DNA of 64,000 nt from a virus. The notes below the pieces were generated by a model. The model was not told the DNA's origin. It made no database searches and saw only the letters and a list, made by a program, of their open reading frames with translations. Positions 1 through 63,978 of the stretch are shown in pieces (within the stretch, counting starts at the first letter, position 1; every line of letters begins with the position of its first letter). Both the position numbers and the translations under genes were made by a program. The stretch spans positions 1 through 64,000 of IMG/VR virus record IMGVR_UViG_3300042923_000275. One strand, 5' to 3'.

Positions 1-333
1 CGCGCGGCCCCACCACCAGCACAACACAGCCGCGCGCCCGTGTCAAGGGCCGTGGCGGGCCGTCCTGGGCTGTGGCGGGCGGTGGGACGCAGGGGCGTTC
101 GCCGCGCTCCACGGACCTCCGCCGCGCTCGCTCGCGCTACCCCACCCGCTAGCGGGCCGTGGACACCGGGCCTCCGTGTGCGTCCCAGCAGGACACGTCC
201 TCCCGGTGTGGGCGGCTGTGCGTCCTGGGTGGGCGTCCCTCTGTGGGACTTCTGGCGTCCCACCCCACCTGTCCGCGCCCGGAGGACATCAGTCCATTAC
301 CACAACACAGCATGACCACTTTAAAGGACTAAA
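1..333. other. GC-rich non-coding left segment
   Basis: This stretch is strongly GC-rich, unlike the AT-leaning phage genes to its right. The first 40 bases contain no T on the + strand, and A is scarce throughout. ACAACACAGC occurs twice, near 21 and near 301. Open frames here translate to low-complexity Arg/Pro/Gly/Ala sequence without a good ribosome binding site, so I call no gene. It could be native phage DNA or the edge of a foreign or chimeric segment; the sequence alone cannot decide. Confidence 0.6.
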
Positions 334-754
334 GCGTCCGGCCCGGTCTTCTGGGTGTGCGGGGTGCGGTGCGGCCCTTTGTCTGGTGTGCGTTCTCGGT
401 GCGGTGGGTGTGGGGGTTGGTCGGGTTGGTTTGGCCCGCGTCGTTGCCGGGCTGGCGGGCCGTGGGGCGTCCCGCTGTGCTTGCGCTCCGTGGGGGTTTG
501 GGTTCCCTGTGTGTGGCTCGGCGTGGGTTGGGTTCGGGGTGGCGTGGGCTTGCTTGCCTTGTTTGGTGCGCTCTGCTTGCCTTTGGCCCGGTGGTGTGCT
601 GGCCTCGTCGGCCTCGTCCTGCTTGGGCCGCCGTGTGTTCTCGGCCCGTTCGCCGCGCGGGTTCGTGGCCTTGCTGGTCTTTGGCGTGTCGGTCTTGTCG
701 GGCGTGCTTGGCTTGTGGGGCCGGGTGCGTGCTGGCCTTGGCGGGTCGGGGCCG
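334..754 (+). other. 421-base adenine-free tract
   Basis: Direct counting gives G 189, C 109, T 123 and A 0 on the + strand, so the minus strand has no T. No stop codon can occur on either strand, so all six frames are open and the long open frames here are not evidence for genes. The tract is bounded on the left by ACTTTAAAGGACTAAAGCG and on the right by GCCGATCGCC. Function unknown. G at 45 percent with no A is what complete A-to-G replacement of a normal-composition sequence would give, but selection or an assembly fault are alternatives. Confidence 0.95.
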
Positions 755-1196
755 ATCGCCTTTCATCAAGTAAAGCATGAAACCCTTTAGTACGGTACTA
801 CCCTACCGCTTTAGCCCAGTACCCCCATATAGGAGTGGCACTTTAAAGCGGTAAAGAGGGAAAGGCATAGCCCTCACCGATCAGACGAATTATATCCTCC
901 GTAGGTCGGTATGTATATCCTTAAGCTTCACATACCTATCCCCTTCTTTCTTGGAAATATACACCCTACTTTAAGCATGACACATGCACCCCTCGAAATA
1001 GTCGCGGTCGTGGGGATTATAGTGGTCTCTCAAGAATGACAATGCCATGTTTAAAACAAGCTAGACACATACGTGAAAGCCTTGCAAGAGGCCGACCGTT
1101 TAAGGTAGACGACGTGCAAGGCTTGCAACTAACGACTATCTAACCAATATATTCGCGACCATGGCACACACCCAACCAAGAACAAAGTACATACAC
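755..1196. other. Intergenic region at left operon end
   Basis: No convincing gene is seen. Short motifs recur: AAGCATGA-like words near 309, 772 and 970, and ACTTTAAAG-like words near 317 and 840, on both sides of the A-free tract. The leftward early operon ends just to the right, so its transcripts would run into this region. A regulatory, replication or packaging role is possible but not shown. A frame of 18 codons on the minus strand (about 1136-1192) has no ribosome binding site and was not called. Confidence 0.5.
1077..1124. repeat. 10-bp inverted repeat, 28-nt loop
   Basis: The arms AAGCCTTGCA and TGCAAGGCTT pair perfectly across a 28-nt loop. It lies downstream of the last leftward gene. 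It lacks a clear T run, so it could be a weak terminator, an RNA stability structure or a protein-binding site. Confidence 0.6.
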
Positions 1197-10336: not shown

Positions 10337-10415
10337 AGCCGACCTCTGAAGACCTTTAGACGATATTTGAAATGCGTATGCAAACGAGCATTAGAAACAA
10401 TCACCGAGGTGTAAT

Positions 10416-10952
10416 ATGGCACGATTGATAAAGGGACCGGAAACCGATCAACACCTAAAAGCATTTGAACTATACTATGGTATGGGTTCTAGCAGATCGT
10501 TACCAGCATTAGCCAAGGAAGTAGGAATGTCGGAGACAGCCGTTAAGGGATGGAGTAGGACGTTCAACTGGACCAAGAGAATAGAAGATAGAGATCAAGA
10601 AGTAGCACACGAATTAAATCGTAAGGCCGCGAAGATAGCCGCCACGAGGAAGATGGCCTATCTGGATACTATAAACATAGGAATGGAACAATTCGCAGAG
10701 GGGTTACGCAATAATACAATACAAGTTAGGTCGGTAGGAGACGCTGAAAAACTCGTTAATATGTATATGAAATTGATCGGTGAGACTCAGATACACCAGA
10801 CCAACGTAATGGTCGTCACCGCCGCTGATATTATCAAAGCAGAAAAGCAGGTGAGAGACGTTGGAGGAACAACACTCGATATCGACCTCAGTGACTATTC
10901 CATTAGTGATGCCGGAGAAGTCGATAGTCCAGAAAATAATAGACTCAATTGA
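10416..10952 (+). CDS. terS: Terminase small subunit
   Basis: The N-terminal helix-turn-helix (LPALAKEVGMSETAVKGWSRTFNW, residues 28-51) is the type seen in Firmicutes phage small terminases that recognise packaging DNA. The middle is helical, as expected for the oligomerisation core. It starts the rightward late operon and overlaps the large terminase gene by up to 92 nt. Assignment rests on the helix-turn-helix and position. Confidence 0.85.
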   Translation: MARLIKGPETDQHLKAFELYYGMGSSRSLPALAKEVGMSETAVKGWSRTFNWTKRIEDRDQEVAHELNRKAAKIAATRKMAYLDTINIGMEQFAEGLRNNTIQVRSVGDAEKLVNMYMKLIGETQIHQTNVMVVTAADIIKAEKQVRDVGGTTLDIDLSDYSISDAGEVDSPENNRLN

Positions 10953-53841: not shown

Positions 53842-54918
53842 TTACGGTAATTCTACCTTATATTGACGGAGATCAACGATCTCGCTATGTTTGGGTCCAG
53901 TACCAATCATAGTTACTGGCACGCCGCTTTCGTCTTCGACTTTTTTAATGAAGTGTTTTGTTTCCTGAGATAACAAGTTGTAGTCGGTGACACCATAATC
54001 GCGGTAATTGATATAATTCACGAAATTCATTGCGATCTGTGTCGGCCTGTTGATCATTACCATATATTGTAATCGATCGAAGTCGAATTCGAAAATTCTG
54101 CGTACCTTCTGAGTGACAGTAGTCCTCTCCAATAATGGTTTCGGTGAGCCTGACATCGCAGTAATTTCACCCCATGTGAGTTCTTTGCCACCCATCGGAC
54201 CGGACCATCCGATCTGTTCGCCACGTTCATTGAATTGATTGCCGACGCGGATTGGATGACACCTCATTACGGCAATTACGTGATCGATAGCCTGAATTGG
54301 AACGCCGCAATCTGCTACAACCTGACCAACATGTGTCTGTCGAGATGTCGTGTACGGATATGCCATTCCGTAATTGATATCGAGGTCAAAACCCTGTGAC
54401 CCCTCGATCATTACCATGTGATTTTGTTCGATATGGTTATTGATCTCATACTCAGTATCAGACAAATACAGACGCAATGATTCGACATCGCGTGCAAGCA
54501 TTACATTTCCCCCACGCATGATTTTGTCGGCTTGTGCCGCACCGCAGCCCTTTTGAGTCGAAGAAATATGACCAAGTGCTTCCGCTTCGATTTTCTTGTG
54601 TTTATCATTGATAATCATAGCACGAGGGTGAATATGTAGCCTGTGACCGCACAAGAATTCACTGAGTTCGCGCTCAAGAATACTCAGTGTAATACCAGCG
54701 CCTGGACCGATGAACAATTCTGTACGTCCATTCACTACTGCCTGTGGGATTTGCTGTACCATAAATGGTTTTCCTTCATCGCTCACCCATGTATGACCAG
54801 CATTGGTATAGAAGTTACAGATGGCGGCATCATAGTTATCCTTGATCGCCATATATCCGACAAATTTGCCTTTGCCCTCGGACCCTGCCTGACCACCAAA
54901 TAATACATTAGTTGACAA
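53842..54918 (-). CDS. purZ: PurZ-type adenylosuccinate synthetase (dGMP-using)
   Basis: About 358 aa, shorter than PurA (about 430). The N-terminal loop is GGQAGSEGKGK; in PurA it is GDEGKGK, with Asp as the catalytic base. Ser at this position is the mark of PurZ, which joins dGMP and aspartate to make N6-succino-2-amino-dAMP, the precursor of dZMP. Other PurA motifs remain: STQKGCGAA, EGSQGFDLDI, TSRQTHVG and IGTGPKHSEIVDL. The start is a TTG 8 nt behind GGAGG. It has its own promoter. Host PurB and guanylate kinase would complete dZ synthesis. Confidence 0.88.
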   Translation of the reverse strand: MSTNVLFGGQAGSEGKGKFVGYMAIKDNYDAAICNFYTNAGHTWVSDEGKPFMVQQIPQAVVNGRTELFIGPGAGITLSILERELSEFLCGHRLHIHPRAMIINDKHKKIEAEALGHISSTQKGCGAAQADKIMRGGNVMLARDVESLRLYLSDTEYEINNHIEQNHMVMIEGSQGFDLDINYGMAYPYTTSRQTHVGQVVADCGVPIQAIDHVIAVMRCHPIRVGNQFNERGEQIGWSGPMGGKELTWGEITAMSGSPKPLLERTTVTQKVRRIFEFDFDRLQYMVMINRPTQIAMNFVNYINYRDYGVTDYNLLSQETKHFIKKVEDESGVPVTMIGTGPKHSEIVDLRQYKVELP

Positions 54919-54957
54919 TGGAACAACCTCCAATATTCTGAATTTCCTGCGATTATT

Positions 54958-59299: not shown

Positions 59300-60052
59300 T
59301 TAGTTAATCCTCCTATCAATAACTGATTGAATCTCCTCGGTATAATGTTCACACCACGACTTCCTGAGTCTTTTCAAGTACTGTGATACACAGGCAGTAG
59401 ATACTCCCCATTCATCGGCTATTTCGCGCTGATATGATACCGAATTATCTCTGTCTACGCCATTATTTATAGTATCGAATAGCTGTAACACTCGTCCACT
59501 TAATTTGGCTCGAAACTCCTGTATAGACATTCCATCCATTACCATTTCTTCCACCAATTGCTCAGTTCTGGTGGCGAATACATTATCATCCTTAACCTCA
59601 GAACCAGTGATCTGTACTACATCTACGCGATGGCTATGACACTTGGGGCATACCCATTCCGTAAACTTCTTAATTACCACATCATGCTTCTTAAGGGTTT
59701 TTGTCGGTCTGCATGTGTGACCACAATCCAGACATGTCTGTTTCGTATTACCGAATACCTGTTGTCTGAAGTATGAGCGCACTTTCCAAATTCCTTTATT
59801 GATTAGATAGATTATTGGATTGCCGATGCTCATATCTACTTCTGATATGGCGTGTGCGACGCCTATCATGAATTCCTGTGAGACGTCATCATTCTCGGCG
59901 AGTCTATTCTTATTCATATATCGCGCAATAGCACGTGGCATGTGATAGCACCGTATCATGACGAGTAGATCATTAGTGGCTCGTTCGTCGCCTAATTTAG
60001 CTAATTTCAACAGACGTAGGCAATTTATTTCAACATCAACATTAATAGCCAT
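59300..60052 (-). CDS. Sigma-factor-like protein with zinc-ribbon insert
   Basis: The ATG behind GGGAGATGAGATT is preferred. Residues 8-80 (LLKLAKLGDERATNDLL, AENDDVSQEFMIGVAHA) resemble sigma region 2. Residues 95-135 form a zinc ribbon (CLDCGH and CPKCHSH). A region 4-like helix-turn-helix follows near 215 (YQREIADEWGVSTACVSQYL). It is the best candidate in the window for the factor that reads the phage promoter. Direct evidence is absent. Confidence 0.65.
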   Translation of the reverse strand: MAINVDVEINCLRLLKLAKLGDERATNDLLVMIRCYHMPRAIARYMNKNRLAENDDVSQEFMIGVAHAISEVDMSIGNPIIYLINKGIWKVRSYFRQQVFGNTKQTCLDCGHTCRPTKTLKKHDVVIKKFTEWVCPKCHSHRVDVVQITGSEVKDDNVFATRTEQLVEEMVMDGMSIQEFRAKLSGRVLQLFDTINNGVDRDNSVSYQREIADEWGVSTACVSQYLKRLRKSWCEHYTEEIQSVIDRRIN

Positions 60053-60067
60053 AATCTCATCTCCCAC

Positions 60068-60090
60068 GGGCGGCATTATCTTAGCCGCCC
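60068..60090 (-). other. Hairpin before the sigma-like gene
   Basis: GGGCGGC and GCCGCCC form a 7-bp stem ending a few nt before the ribosome binding site. There is no T run. It may control translation or mark an RNA end. Confidence 0.5.
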
Positions 60091-60105: not shown

Positions 60106-60576
60106 TTAGCCAACTATTTCTGTTTTGGTGGCTACTGTACGTTTTTCTTTCAATCGGTCATTACGGCGCGCTTTAGTAAATGCCTGTTGACATGACTTGC
60201 AACGAGTCACCTGGAATGCATCCTGTACCTTAATAATTCTCTCGGCTCCACAGTCCTTGCAATTGATTGCTGTAGTCTTGCCGTGTAGAACCGTCCCATC
60301 TCCGGTGGTGGTCATTGTAGTCTTTGGTTTCTGCTTTGGAATTACATCAGTGTCACCTATAGAGGCCTGTTTAGTGGTCTTCGCTGGTTTTTCCTTTTTG
60401 ATGGTGTCGGTGGCCTGTGCTACTGTTTTCTGTTGGTCGGTGGTAATTTCGTCTTGTGGTACCACCAGAGACTTCTTGATTTTTGCCCCGCAGGTATCAC
60501 ATCTGAGAAAACCACGTACTCCTTCAACTAGATTACCAGTACATCCAGCGAGTATACACTTATGATTCGATTCCAT
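60106..60576 (-). CDS. Two-zinc-ribbon protein with Lys/Thr linker
   Basis: An N-terminal ribbon (CILAGC ... CDTCGAK) and a C-terminal ribbon (CKDCGAE ... CKSCQQ) are joined by a long Lys/Thr/Gln-rich linker (residues 45-100). The layout suggests a nucleic-acid-binding or RNA polymerase-binding adaptor. Its leader carries a hammerhead ribozyme and is transcribed from the promoter at 60737. Confidence 0.65.
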   Translation of the reverse strand: MESNHKCILAGCTGNLVEGVRGFLRCDTCGAKIKKSLVVPQDEITTDQQKTVAQATDTIKKEKPAKTTKQASIGDTDVIPKQKPKTTMTTTGDGTVLHGKTTAINCKDCGAERIIKVQDAFQVTRCKSCQQAFTKARRNDRLKEKRTVATKTEIVG

Positions 60577-60605
60577 CTAGTAGACCTCCTTTATTATCTG
60601 CGAGT

Positions 60606-60660
60606 GGCCTCGTCAGCGTGGACACTATCCACGGACCGGACTCAGTGTCCGGTTTCGGCC
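60606..60660 (-). ncRNA. Hammerhead ribozyme, type II (copy 1)
   Basis: In RNA order: GGCC, GAAA, closed stem III (CCGGAC/GUCCGG), U-C, closed stem I (CGUGGA/UCCACG, loop UAGUG), CUGACGA, GGCC. All core bases are present and stem II is the open one. The cleavage triplet is GUC at 60636-60634, so cutting falls between 60634 and 60633. It ends 29 nt before the start codon at 60576. Confidence 0.9.
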
Positions 60661-60726
60661 TACTGACTTCCTTGATCTGCTTTCCTACTTCCGATATCCT
60701 TATCAGAGGGATAGCTTTTTTTCGAC

Positions 60727-61068
60727 TTACGTCTGGGTATCGTGCTTGTATATCTCATCAGCTAAACACCCAATAATCTCGTTCAATCGGTCAATTTGCT
60801 GAGTGGTAAGTAAGTCTTCGATACCCATCATTCCGCTCAAACTTCGTACGATCGCAACCGATTTCTTAAATATCCGTTTCCCCCGGAGTCCTTCGATATC
60901 TATTTCCCAATCGATTGTTGTACCTGTTCTCAATGCTTCCATAAAAGATGTTGCTTCATTAAATTTCTTATCTCTAGTTAGTGCCTTGAGAATGCGTACG
61001 GACTGTATGTATATTTCTACCCGTGCCCTCTCCGCGAGACGTGATTCTATGGATTGTGATTCGTTCAT
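60727..61068 (-). CDS. Hypothetical helical protein, 113 aa
   Basis: GAAGGAGGTGTACG precedes the ATG. The protein is helical (SRLAERARVEIYIQSVRILKAL) without known motif. Its last codons contain the promoter at 60737-60767. It is part of the early operon. Confidence 0.6.
   Translation of the reverse strand: MNESQSIESRLAERARVEIYIQSVRILKALTRDKKFNEATSFMEALRTGTTIDWEIDIEGLRGKRIFKKSVAIVRSLSGMMGIEDLLTTQQIDRLNEIIGCLADEIYKHDTQT
60737..60767 (-). promoter_or_regulatory. Phage-type promoter GTTTAG-N19-CGATAC
   Basis: It lies within the last codons of the 113-aa gene and is about 75 nt upstream of the ribozyme at 60606-60660. The sequence after its -10 box is similar to that after the promoter at 10306. 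Confidence 0.7.
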
Positions 61069-61189
61069 CGTACACCTCCTTCTTCGATCAGTCCTGCCAT
61101 CCGCCCTACAATATTCGCGGTGGGTTGGATGCCTCGTTCTGAGGCGGCTTTGCGTATCGTCCGTGGTCTGCGATTGCGCCGCTGTACGC
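61069..61189 (-). other. Short intergenic region with small hairpin
   Basis: No gene is evident. GCCTC and GAGGC form a small stem in the leader of the 113-aa gene, and ACGATAC is present without a fitting -35 box. A hammerhead core is not present here. Confidence 0.4.
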
Positions 61190-61513
61190 TTACTTAACGT
61201 ACTTGCCTATTTCTACTGTTAGTAGATCGAATTCAGCCAATTCCTCTTTTGTGAATGCGTCACGGTTGTTATCGTGTATTGCTATCTTGATGGCCTGTAT
61301 CAGTAGTTTGCGCTGTGTGACATTCAGTTTCATGTTTAATCTCCTCTCATATTTCAGATACTCGATATATCTCGTGTATTTGTTCTTATAGATTGCAAAT
61401 ACGTAACGGGCTTGCTTAGCAGATGTGACGACTATACCAGACCTCATTACGTTGGCTATGTGTTGTGCGTACGTTATCTGGTTGTATTCAAGATCGTAAG
61501 TACGGTAGTACAC
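61190..61513 (-). CDS. Hypothetical protein with internal start
   Basis: A GTG 6 nt behind GGAGG is the likely start (MYYRTYDLEYNQITYAQ). Inside the gene, GAGGAGATTAAAC precedes an in-frame ATG at 61333 (MKLNVTQRKLLIQAIK), so a shorter 47-aa product may also be made. The long form has a Tyr/Lys-rich N-terminal part. Function unknown. Confidence 0.55.
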   Translation of the reverse strand: MYYRTYDLEYNQITYAQHIANVMRSGIVVTSAKQARYVFAIYKNKYTRYIEYLKYERRLNMKLNVTQRKLLIQAIKIAIHDNNRDAFTKEELAEFDLLTVEIGKYVK

Positions 61514-61733
61514 GTACATCCTCCAATCCACCCTCTGTGTTCATAATCTCCACAAGCTGGTCGGCGGTGTGTTCTCTGATGTAGACTGTTTCGCGTGTGT
61601 AGGGACCACAGTCGCATCTAGTTCCGACGTAATGTCCACTCCCTGAGTGCATTGATTCGAATTTGAATTCGTGACCACATTCATCACATGTTCTCGATGC
61701 CCCTAAGGCAATCGTCTCTTTTGGAAAGGCCAT
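61488..61733 (-). CDS. Zinc-ribbon protein, 81 aa
   Basis: CDECGHEF and CDCGPY make a four-Cys zinc ribbon in the first half, followed by a helix. AGGAGGTTAGTAAC precedes the ATG. A hammerhead ribozyme ends 29 nt upstream. Function unknown. Confidence 0.62.
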   Translation of the reverse strand: MAFPKETIALGASRTCDECGHEFKFESMHSGSGHYVGTRCDCGPYTRETVYIREHTADQLVEIMNTEGGLEDVRVLPYLRS

Positions 61734-61762
61734 GTTACTAACCTCCTATACTCTCTGACATT

Positions 61763-61822
61763 GGACTCGTCAGCGTGGACACTATCCACGTACGTGGACC
61801 GGACACGGCCCACGTTTCGTCC
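61763..61822 (-). ncRNA. Hammerhead ribozyme, type II (copy 2)
   Basis: Order: GGAC, GAAA, stem III (CGUGG/CCACG), U-A, stem I (CGUGGA/UCCACG, loop UAGUG), CUGACGA, GUCC. Stem II (GGAC/GUCC) is the open one. The cleavage triplet is GUA at 61793-61791, an allowed NUH site; cutting falls between 61791 and 61790. It ends 29 nt before the start at 61733. Confidence 0.85.
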
Positions 61823-61831
61823 TAGGTATGC

Positions 61832-61984
61832 TTACTTGGCTACCGCATTCACAATGAATGCTCCTACCAGTAACATTCCACCGACAACTATCAATGAAGT
61901 GATCATGCTAGCATCTACGATAACGTCACATTTATCGCTATCTTCGTACTGACCTTCCTCATATTGATGTCGGCTTCCCCTCAT
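61832..61984 (-). CDS. Small membrane protein, 50 aa
   Basis: An acidic N-terminal half (YEEGQYEDSDKCD) is followed by one Gly/Val-rich span (SLIVVGGMLLVGAFIV). It begins 3 nt after the stop of the 54-aa gene. No family recognised. Confidence 0.55.
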   Translation of the reverse strand: MRGSRHQYEEGQYEDSDKCDVIVDASMITSLIVVGGMLLVGAFIVNAVAK

Positions 61985-61987
61985 GGG

Positions 61988-62152
61988 CTACTTCTTCTTC
62001 TCGTAGATTTGGACTTGTACTGTGTATACCTCATTGCCGATTTTCACGTCTTGGCGCTCATACCATCCTTCCTTACCGGAAGTGAATGTCTTTGCGGTGG
62101 TCTCCGCATCGATGGTGATACCAATGTGGTTGCTCTCTTTTACTACTTTCAT
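61988..62152 (-). CDS. Small hypothetical protein, 54 aa
   Basis: AGGAGGGTATTTAC precedes the ATG. The product (MKVVKESNHIGITIDAETTA...) looks like a small beta-rich protein with a Lys tail (YEKKK). A hammerhead ribozyme ends 30 nt upstream. Function unknown. Confidence 0.6.
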   Translation of the reverse strand: MKVVKESNHIGITIDAETTAKTFTSGKEGWYERQDVKIGNEVYTVQVQIYEKKK

Positions 62153-62182
62153 GTAAATACCCTCCTTTATCTCTGCGGCCTT

Positions 62183-62236
62183 CGGCTCATCAGTACGGAC
62201 TCTATCCGTAGACCGGACTCAGGTCCGGTTTCGCCG
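62183..62236 (-). ncRNA. Hammerhead ribozyme, type II (copy 3)
   Basis: Order: CGGC, GAAA, stem III (CCGGAC/GUCCGG), U-C, stem I (UACGGA/UCCGUA, loop UAGAG), CUGAUGA, GCCG. The core is perfect and stem II has 4 bp. The cleavage triplet is GUC at 62213-62211, so cutting falls between 62211 and 62210. It ends 30 nt before the start at 62152. Confidence 0.9.
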
Positions 62237-62289
62237 TTGCGAGGCTTGTTGTTATCGTTAGCGCACCACCACCACCGATTACACTATGG

Positions 62290-62319
62290 GTATCGTATGC
62301 CTGATCTTGAGCGCTAAAC
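62290..62319 (-). promoter_or_regulatory. Phage-type promoter GTTTAG-N18-CGATAC
   Basis: A consensus match placed directly after the 79-aa gene and about 55 nt upstream of ribozyme copy 3. It drives the 54-aa gene and those after it. Confidence 0.72.
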
Positions 62320-62326
62320 ACCGATT

Positions 62327-62566
62327 TTAAAATTTGATGCTCTGAATCGCTACGCATTGGTCTGTAGCCTTAGAGAGTATATCAGCTCCTATTAATGCCA
62401 TTATAGGCATGACATTTGGGCATCCTGTCTGCATACACGTTATGATGAACTTGATCTGGTTATTTTCTTCTAGCATGGCACATTTGATCACCAGATAGCT
62501 CCCACAGTCAGGACAGATTTTATCAACCAGTAACCCTTCGTAGTCGCTCAGGTCATCAATTCTCAT
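62327..62566 (-). CDS. Zinc-ribbon protein, 79 aa
   Basis: CPDCGSYLVIKC and a later CMQTGCPN make a likely zinc site. GGAGGTATAAG precedes the ATG. Spacing to the upstream 61-aa gene is 1 nt. Function unknown. Confidence 0.62.
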   Translation of the reverse strand: MRIDDLSDYEGLLVDKICPDCGSYLVIKCAMLEENNQIKFIITCMQTGCPNVMPIMALIGADILSKATDQCVAIQSIKF

Positions 62567-62567
62567 C

Positions 62568-62753
62568 TTATACCTCCCCCTCCGACTTACTTAAAGCCTC
62601 AGTTTCACATCTCTGAATTTGACCCCACGCCGCTTCTTCTGATATTTCGGTACCGAAGACCGTATTACCAGTCTTGGTGTCCGTAATGCGATAGAACCAT
62701 GGTACGTTTAGAAAGTGATCGACCCTTTTGACCTCTTTTATAAACCTGTTCAT
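62568..62753 (-). CDS. Hypothetical protein, 61 aa
   Basis: The ATG overlaps the upstream stop (ATGA). The sequence (NVPWFYRITDTKTGNTVFG) suggests a small beta-rich domain with a helical, acidic tail. No family recognised. Confidence 0.6.
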   Translation of the reverse strand: MNRFIKEVKRVDHFLNVPWFYRITDTKTGNTVFGTEISEEAAWGQIQRCETEALSKSEGEV

Positions 62754-63115
62754 TCCTTCGACTCCTTTACTTTAATTAGATATTTACGTGCCTCGCGTAA
62801 CTTGTATGCCATGTCTAGATCGCGTCCACGTCCGTTGATTAGTTCGGTATCCGTGTATCTTTTATATCTCTTGATTATCGAGTTTATCTCGTGGTCTATT
62901 GATTTGATCGCGAAATCTAGAAATGATATTGTGGTACTCTCGTATACGTACTTACTTCTGCTAGTGTTTATTGCTAGCATCACCGCGCTCTTGAACAGCA
63001 TAAGTTGTGATTTCTCGTTGTCATCTTCGGATTCATCGATAGTCGCTATAATTACCTCTACAGCACTTAAGATATCCTTCATTTGGTTGTCTTCTAAATA
63101 AGGCATTCTCCCCAT
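62750..63115 (-). CDS. Hypothetical helical protein, 121 aa
   Basis: The ATG 9 nt behind GAGGAG is preferred over an upstream TTG. The protein is mostly helical (MKDILSAVEVIIATIDESEDDNE) without a metal or nucleotide motif; it is not a MazG-type pyrophosphatase as far as can be judged. A hammerhead ribozyme ends 28 nt upstream. Confidence 0.6.
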   Translation of the reverse strand: MGRMPYLEDNQMKDILSAVEVIIATIDESEDDNEKSQLMLFKSAVMLAINTSRSKYVYESTTISFLDFAIKSIDHEINSIIKRYKRYTDTELINGRGRDLDMAYKLREARKYLIKVKESKE

Positions 63116-63143
63116 CGTTACCAACTCCTCTATTTCTAATATC

Positions 63144-63196
63144 GGCTCATCAGCACTGGTTTACCAGTGGACGTGGACCGGAGTCCACGTTTCGCC
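63144..63196 (-). ncRNA. Hammerhead ribozyme, type II (copy 4)
   Basis: Order: GGC, GAAA, stem III (CGUGGAC/GUCCACG), U-C, stem I (CACUGG/CCAGUG, tetraloop UAAA), CUGAUGA, GCC. The core is perfect; stem II has 3 bp plus a possible G-U. The stem I loop differs from the other copies. The cleavage triplet is GUC at 63172-63170, so cutting falls between 63170 and 63169. It ends 28 nt before the start at 63115. Confidence 0.88.
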
Positions 63197-63198
63197 AT

Positions 63199-63690
63199 CT
63201 ATGCTCTGATCAGTTCGAGCCGTGTGCGTGATATCAGCTCTAATACCTGCATAAGTGGATAGTCCTCATCTACATTCCCGGTCTTACGACCCTCGATATT
63301 CCTGGCTAAGCCGTCTAATTGGAGTACGGAATCAATGCCGACGCCGAGGTCTATGTCCTGGGATGTTACGGTGCTTATTAGCCATTGTAGAGCTGCAATA
63401 ATACGTGGTGTGTTTCCCTCGTCGTCGATTATATCTCCTATGTCATAATCCCTGTAGTCCGAGACCATTTCATTTAGCCAGTCTTGCAGTACAGTGACGG
63501 AATTCTCATATTCCCAATACGCATCCGGCTTGGTTATGATGTTTAGAGCATCGCATAGTGCCTCCTGCCTAGATATCAATCCCTCTAATTCGTATCCATC
63601 TTCCGATGCCTCTTTACCCATCTCCTCTATATCTCGGTCAACATCCTCTTGTAACCCACGTAATTCCCTTAAGTAGTCTAATGTGTTCAT
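63199..63690 (-). CDS. Hypothetical acidic helical protein, 163 aa
   Basis: AGGAGGTAATGA precedes the ATG. The protein is helical and acidic (QEDVDRDIEEMGKEASEDGYE) with no recognised motif. It lies between two ribozyme-bearing leaders; copy 5 ends 30 nt upstream and copy 4 begins 2 nt after its stop codon. Function unknown. Confidence 0.6.
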   Translation of the reverse strand: MNTLDYLRELRGLQEDVDRDIEEMGKEASEDGYELEGLISRQEALCDALNIITKPDAYWEYENSVTVLQDWLNEMVSDYRDYDIGDIIDDEGNTPRIIAALQWLISTVTSQDIDLGVGIDSVLQLDGLARNIEGRKTGNVDEDYPLMQVLELISRTRLELIRA

Positions 63691-63720
63691 TTCATTACCT
63701 CCTATTTCCCTGCGGCTTCA

Positions 63721-63774
63721 GGCTCGTCAGTGCGGACACTATCCGCAGACCGGACCTTGTGATCCGGTTTCGCC
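63721..63774 (-). ncRNA. Hammerhead ribozyme, type II (copy 5)
   Basis: Order: GGC, GAAA, stem III (CCGGA/UCCGG, with loop), U-C, stem I (UGCGGA/UCCGCA, loop UAGUG), CUGACGA, GCC. The cleavage triplet is GUC at 63750-63748, so cutting falls between 63748 and 63747. It begins immediately after the stop of the 67-aa gene and ends 30 nt before the start at 63690. Confidence 0.9.
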
Positions 63775-63978
63775 TTACTTGATTGGCGGTACGTACCGCT
63801 CATTGCGGTGACCACAATCTGGGCACATCAGCTGTGCGAACACTCCCTTCTCTACGCCTACCACCTGATATCTTACTATACCACACATCGTGCAGTTTGG
63901 CGGTTGATACCTCTCCAGTATTACCTCATCTATGTTGTATTTCGAGTATGTCACTACCAAGATATCGCCATTCGGCAT
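63775..63978 (-). CDS. Zinc-ribbon protein, 67 aa
   Basis: CTMCGIVRY and CPDCGHRN form a zinc ribbon in the second half. The upstream region is cut by the window end, so promoter and start cannot be verified; GAGCCGAG before the ATG is a weak ribosome binding site. Function unknown. Confidence 0.6.
   Translation of the reverse strand: MPNGDILVVTYSKYNIDEVILERYQPPNCTMCGIVRYQVVGVEKGVFAQLMCPDCGHRNERYVPPIK

Follow-up and report, generated by a model that had tools for sequence, protein, structure and literature searches.

Five pseudoknot-free type II hammerhead ribozymes are predicted to punctuate a phage operon

We analyzed bases 1–64,000 (the window) of a 68,058-bp virus record, IMGVR_UViG_3300042923_000275, from the IMG/VR database and found five type II hammerhead ribozymes, HH1 to HH5, in the leaders of minus-strand genes. 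These elements, which lack the pseudoknot of the published type II consensus, probably self-cleave and so punctuate a polycistronic phage transcript, and we infer that this cleavage occurs in vivo.

To detect the elements, we used a strict descriptor of the type II fold that requires GAAA, stem III (≥4 bp), UH, stem I (≥4 bp), CUGANGA, and stem II (≥3 bp). It returned five matches in the window, all on the minus strand, and none in 40 Markov-shuffled windows searched on both strands. Descriptors revealed no type I or type III hammerheads in the window, and a search of the whole circular genome allowing up to two core mismatches revealed no sixth or degraded copy. An independent covariance model, whose training set was 47 hammerheads on other viral contigs, with the window excluded, retrieved exactly the same five elements (43–60 bits, E values of 1e-10 to 7e-16). 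A sequence-only reading of this DNA had listed five type II hammerheads with complete cores and GUC or GUA cleavage sites. All of this was borne out, and the five cut positions that it predicted match ours to the base. The element starts agree for three; the starts given for HH4 and HH5 (63144 and 63721) are off by one base, the outermost stem II pair.

Every base of CUGANGA and GAAA is present in all five elements, and a cleavage triplet of the form NUH lies beside stem III in each (four GUC and one GUA). Both the descriptor and the covariance model give three helices per element, with stems I and III closed by loops and stem II open. While the core is constant, all three stems vary from element to element, and both partners of a pair change; for example, the second pair of stem II is G-C three times, A-U once, and C-G once. 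At the level of sequence, the five elements are confirmed as type II hammerhead ribozymes with predicted cleavage sites. Their leaders are alike beyond the ribozyme and look duplicated. The coordinates of the ribozymes, of the linkers that join stem II to the start codon, and of the genes that follow are listed in the table.

Table. Ribozymes, linkers, downstream genes, and predicted post-cleavage hairpins in the window
Feature	Position	Strand	Detail
HH1 type II hammerhead	60606..60660	-	GUC, predicted cut 60634/60633; 60.1 bits (model R1)
HH2 type II hammerhead	61763..61822	-	GUA, predicted cut 61791/61790; 44.5 bits
HH3 type II hammerhead	62183..62236	-	GUC, predicted cut 62211/62210; 57.2 bits
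HH4 type II hammerhead	63143..63197	-	GUC, predicted cut 63170/63169; 43.2 bits; stem I loop UAAA, no pentaloop
HH5 type II hammerhead	63720..63775	-	GUC, predicted cut 63748/63747; 57.0 bits
HH1 linker	60577..60605	-	Shine-Dalgarno AGGAGG 60585-60590
HH2 linker	61734..61762	-	Shine-Dalgarno AGGAGG 61742-61747
HH3 linker	62153..62182	-	Shine-Dalgarno AGGAGG 62161-62166
HH4 linker	63116..63142	-	Shine-Dalgarno AGGAG 63125-63129
HH5 linker	63691..63719	-	Shine-Dalgarno AGGAGG 63698-63703
Gene after HH1	60106..60576	-	156-amino acid protein, two Cys-rich zinc-ribbon-like stretches
Gene after HH2	61488..61733	-	81-amino acid Cys-rich protein, no family match
Gene after HH3	61988..62152	-	54-amino acid protein, no family match
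Gene after HH4	62750..63115	-	121-amino acid protein, no family match
Gene after HH5	63199..63690	-	163-amino acid protein, no trustworthy family match
Possible post-cleavage hairpin, HH1	60598..60616	-	core strand CUGACGAG with linker CUCGCAG; predicted only
Equivalent post-cleavage hairpins, other four	61755-61773, 62173-62193, 63136-63153, 63710-63730	-	predicted

From HH1 to HH5, the linkers between stem II and the ATG measure 29, 29, 30, 27, and 29 nucleotides (nt), and each contains AGGAGG or AGGAG. The sequence-only reading had put this distance at 28–30 nt, just before the ribosome binding site; the leader position and the Shine-Dalgarno sequences hold, and the actual range is 27–30 nt. 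At the other side, HH5 shares its first base with the stop codon of the gene upstream.

We determined whether this arrangement holds for viral type II hammerheads at large. A first sample came from a pattern scan of viral contigs for the core and a CCGG stem III, with placement not a criterion, and gave 183 usable hammerheads. Counting contigs without correction for relatedness, here and in the second sample, 156 of the 183 are followed within 40 nt by a start codon that has the same direction and a Shine-Dalgarno sequence; the same test gave 6 of 183 for the opposite strand and 14% for random points. Where the upstream stop codon could be mapped, approximately 142 of 174 start no more than about 10 nt from it. 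In a second, differently selected sample, 87 of 126 were near a start (versus 6) and 94 of 126 were within 10 nt of a stop. Some contigs carry a ribozyme between nearly all consecutive gene pairs: one (L015) has ten in 2.8 kb, each no more than 4 nt from a stop and 14–19 nt from an ATG, while others have arrays of 8–10 (L070) and eleven (L228). Viral type II hammerheads are thus generally found between a stop codon and the next ribosome binding site. The earlier claim that the elements are functional parts of gene leaders is supported in that they are oriented with their genes, their placement is not random, and the same placement is found in more than 100 viral contigs. Since the placement holds so widely, RNA punctuation is the best explanation for it. 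Two further ribozymes turned up alongside these searches. A locus with a type II hammerhead (L095) also carries a Pistol ribozyme at 324-400 (57 bits), and the cultured, Mu-like Rhodobacter phage RcWaterboi (MW677528.1) contains an unannotated type II hammerhead (10392-10462, 65.8 bits) that separates an HU-like gene from gene 20.

No Rfam family matched the window at its gathering threshold. Against RF02276 (Hammerhead_II), which has a gathering cut-off of 37 bits, three window elements scored 35.3, 34.4, and 33.0 bits and two were undetected. We attribute this to the absence of a pseudoknot. Pairing between loop I and the 3′ tail was rejected for four of the five elements; HH1 alone has a 4-bp candidate (AGUG/CACU). 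The sequence-only reading had missed this feature of the elements. Viral type II hammerheads as a whole fall into a long-loop and a short-loop set, with 30 of 34 multi-copy loci containing only one kind and the short-loop set making up about 40% of the total. In the long-loop set, the loop I/tail pseudoknot score was 12.20, compared to 9.70 ± 0.27 expected when tails were dealt anew. The short-loop set gave no such signal (6.66, compared to 6.89 ± 0.28 expected by the same procedure). Rfam at its own cut-off recovers 1 of 25 short-loop hammerheads, compared to 23 of 29 long-loop hammerheads.

The short-loop hammerheads share other features. Stem I is a 17-nt hairpin, usually of 6 bp, in which a G-C pair closes a U-N-A-N-G pentaloop; stem II has 4 bp, and the base immediately 5′ of stem II is A in 96% of loci. 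In a second short-loop sample, chosen by core and loop letters alone with pairing not demanded, 128 of 132 matches fold all three stems, all 107 loci have the A 5′ of stem II, and 105 of them have a stem II of 4 bp. The window elements fall within or near this set. In all five, stem I has 6 bp and stem II has 4 bp and is directly preceded by the A; in four, an A also follows stem II. The stem I loop is UAGTG or UAGAG in four elements, which keep the U and the G of U-N-A-N-G and have G rather than A as the third base; in HH4 the loop is the 4-nt UAAA. In our reading, the loop U and the flanking A could make the contact that a pseudoknot supplies elsewhere.

How might these ribozymes act? The hammerhead would fold as RNA polymerase leaves the element and cut between stems III and I. 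The upstream message would keep its own stop codon and gain a 3′ stem III hairpin ending in 2′,3′-cyclic phosphate. The downstream message would begin with a 5′-OH and a stem I hairpin at its first base, 54–58 nt before the ATG, with its ribosome binding site intact. In bacteria, 5′-OH groups and terminal hairpins slow RNA decay that starts from 5′-monophosphates or 3′ ends. Both new ends could therefore be shielded, the one from 5′-monophosphate-dependent nucleases and the other from 3′ exonucleases, and the pieces could then differ in lifetime and translation rate. The sequence-only reading had proposed a protective stem I hairpin and 5′-OH; that side is covered, although it stressed the 5′ side alone.

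The predicted pieces between cuts are 578, 959, 420, and 1157 nt. An earlier expectation that cleavage yields single units agrees with some of these, but the 959- and 1157-nt pieces contain three genes each. Thus, the operon would be cut into short blocks and not into single genes alone. We detected no minus-strand terminator-like sites between the five elements; the only one in the 56–64 kb region is a strong hairpin at 56242-56207 (14 pairs followed by an AU-rich tail), a candidate for the end of the minus-strand operon. Folding predictions gave no consistent gain in the opening of the ribosome binding site upon cleavage, and we rejected a simple translation switch operated by cleavage. Because cleavage is not predicted to open this site, an effect on RNA lifetime and on the independence of the units is more likely than a translation switch.

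What the analysis shows directly is the anatomy, orientation, and placement of the elements and the conservation of their core and peripheral residues. Beyond cleavage in vivo, we infer that a single transcript runs through the region, that the new ends are protected, and that the phage benefits. Several points weigh against this interpretation. HH2, with its GUA triplet, and HH4, with its 4-nt loop, may cut more slowly than the others. Only 5 of approximately 13 genes in the block have a ribozyme in front, so processing would be partial. We found no relatives of the ribozyme operon against which conservation of the five positions could be assessed. Lastly, the activity, transcript, and promoter are presumed, as is the "early" status of the region, a label that was given to the operon from gene position.

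A further concern arises from the linkers. The linker of each of the five leaders can pair with CUGANGA, with a mean predicted minimum free energy of -5.5 kcal/mol compared to -2.2 kcal/mol for shuffled linkers. The letters that pair differ between copies (for example, GUCAG/CUGAC and UAUUAG/CUGAUG). Such a hairpin might release the cleavage products from each other and block re-ligation, but could also compete with folding of the ribozyme. As a general feature, a core-sequestering hairpin was rejected, since the signal outside the window was weak (5.40 in the short-loop class, compared to 4.93 ± 0.25 expected). Other viral hammerheads show this pairing weakly or not at all, and the five leaders are paralogues, so we give the hairpin low weight.

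The same pairing could make the ribozymes regulated switches, in which ribosomes at the upstream stop codon or the downstream initiation site, or the linker hairpin itself, decide whether cutting occurs. The linker can sequester the core in five of five window elements, and most viral cases have stem II and GAAA right at the upstream stop. However, the hammerhead is transcribed ahead of the linker, in other viral hammerheads the pairing barely exceeds chance, the five leaders are paralogues of one another, and the elements have neither a ligand pocket nor a conserved extra domain. We consider such regulation unlikely.

Another explanation is that the ribozymes cut so that the ends of a segment can be joined, by host RtcB or by the ribozyme itself, into circular or spliced RNAs. 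The ends (5′-OH and 2′,3′-cyclic phosphate) have the right chemistry for ligation, and stem II would hold together the ends of a segment cut by two neighboring ribozymes. In viral arrays, stem II is more alike within than between contigs (0.85 versus 0.34 for the first variable pair), a likeness exceeding that of stems I and III, and HH3, HH4, and HH5 have the inner stem II GGC/GCC in common. Yet the stem II sequences of HH1 and HH2 are incompatible, stem II likeness may reflect mere paralogy or overlap with stop codons, and circles offer no clear translational benefit. Spliced or circular products of prophage hammerheads were sought and not found (Perreault et al., 2011; PMC3088659). Ligation as the purpose of cleavage is therefore improbable. 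That the elements are inactive relics, kept because they serve as stem-loop spacers or because repeated leaders recombine, is hardly credible: the leader likeness that extends past the ribozyme does suggest duplication, but the stems have diverged on both sides with no core base lost in any of the five, all five retain the A beside stem II, and degraded copies are absent from the genome.

Punctuation of the transcript by self-cleavage thus remains the interpretation that we favor. Combining it with the loop and linker observations gives a broader proposal: a second widespread type II class that Rfam for the most part overlooks, whose UNANG pentaloop, carried on a stem I fixed at 6 bp, substitutes for the pseudoknot by docking on a near-invariant A next to a stem II fixed at 4 bp; which phages use as operon punctuation in the order stop, ribozyme, Shine-Dalgarno sequence, start; and in which, in the window phage, the linker refolds with the catalytic strand after the cut and makes the cut one-way. 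We hold this joint proposal tentatively, judging it slightly more apt to fail in some part than to hold as a whole.

The record most likely represents a complete phage with a closed circle of 67,931 bp, since its first and last 127 bases are identical and form an exact terminal repeat. Structural genes form a plus-strand block and replication genes a minus-strand block; from their translations, we take the latter to include a DnaE-type polymerase, a primase-helicase, RecA, an anaerobic ribonucleotide reductase, and a ligase. The DNA of the ribozyme region had no match among 50,697 phage records, and the phage proteins that we tried had distant relatives or none. Searches with the ligase, the sigma-like or zinc-ribbon protein, the DNA, and the exact loop sequence revealed no close relatives of the phage. 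A homologue of adenylosuccinate synthetase (PF00709, 2.6e-44) is encoded at 53842-54933 on the minus strand. PurZ-type adenylosuccinate synthetase genes are known from phages with 2-aminoadenine DNA.

Several neighbors of the ribozyme operon deserve mention. The zinc-ribbon protein encoded after HH1 and another encoded at L120 1738-2286 look paralogous (the C..CG...FQVTRC stretch is alike by eye), and of these two genes only the former has a ribozyme in front. Directly after the HH1 gene, a 258-amino acid protein encoded at 59300-60076 on the minus strand has the Cys pairs of a zinc motif and weak similarity to sigma-70 region 2 (0.0066), and is possibly a phage sigma-like factor. Upstream of the operon, approximately 3.3 kb with a guanine-cytosine (GC) content of 65–84%, in a genome of 43% GC, runs across the closing point from 65.6 kb to 0.8 kb of the record (window 1-780 and L120 2300-5059). 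It contains repetitive Ala-rich minus-strand frames, one of which shares TEHPF with a 118-amino acid gene at 64216-64572. That this stretch is a chimeric contig end is unsupported, as the 127-bp exact repeat is present at both record ends and the circle closes inside the region.

What role hammerheads play in phages has been unsettled since 2011, when clusters flanking phage genes were described in prophages together with a processing hypothesis, and three tandem arrays were found to cleave in vitro, one of them also in E. coli (PMC3088659). mRNA processing, which the sequence-only reading also proposed, was therefore already published, with cleavage demonstrated. Our analysis adds a quantified geometry of stop, ribozyme, Shine-Dalgarno sequence, and start, arrays of up to eleven ribozymes, and a coherent pseudoknot-free class that falls under the Rfam cut-off. 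The pseudoknot-free variant looks new; since the 2011 study stated the loop I/3′ tail pseudoknot for the majority and not all of its type II motifs, pseudoknot-free examples may be present in its data. A sharp placement rule, a class missed by annotation, and defined cut sites make the punctuation hypothesis directly testable. Type II is also the sole permutation in which each of the two new ends carries a closed hairpin, a possible reason for its use between genes.

The window elements most resemble the prophage type II hammerheads (Perreault et al., 2011, PMC3088659; RF02276), with which they share the core, an open stem II, closed stems I and III, the GUC triplet, and clusters that flank single phage genes or short blocks. 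The prophage consensus differs in having the loop I/3′ tail pseudoknot, which is absent from four of the five window elements, and all five fall under the Rfam cut-off. HHphage of haloviruses HF1 and HF2 likewise lies closely upstream (13 nt) of a phage gene start, but its core contains an insertion, proposed to be an adaptation to high salt (PMC3088659), whereas the window has five copies with canonical cores. Pistol and the pseudoknot hammerhead are, like the window elements, small self-cleaving ribozymes, but their folds depend on a pseudoknot (PMC11300833), which the window elements do not use. In extended type I and III hammerheads (Schistosoma, sTRSV), non-Watson-Crick contacts join the stem I loop to stem II and include a conserved reverse-Hoogsteen pair (PMC6155905). 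In the window elements, a similar pair may form between the U of the pentaloop and the A beside stem II, but the arrangement is permuted: stem II is open, and the A that would be contacted sits in the ribozyme's 5′ flank.

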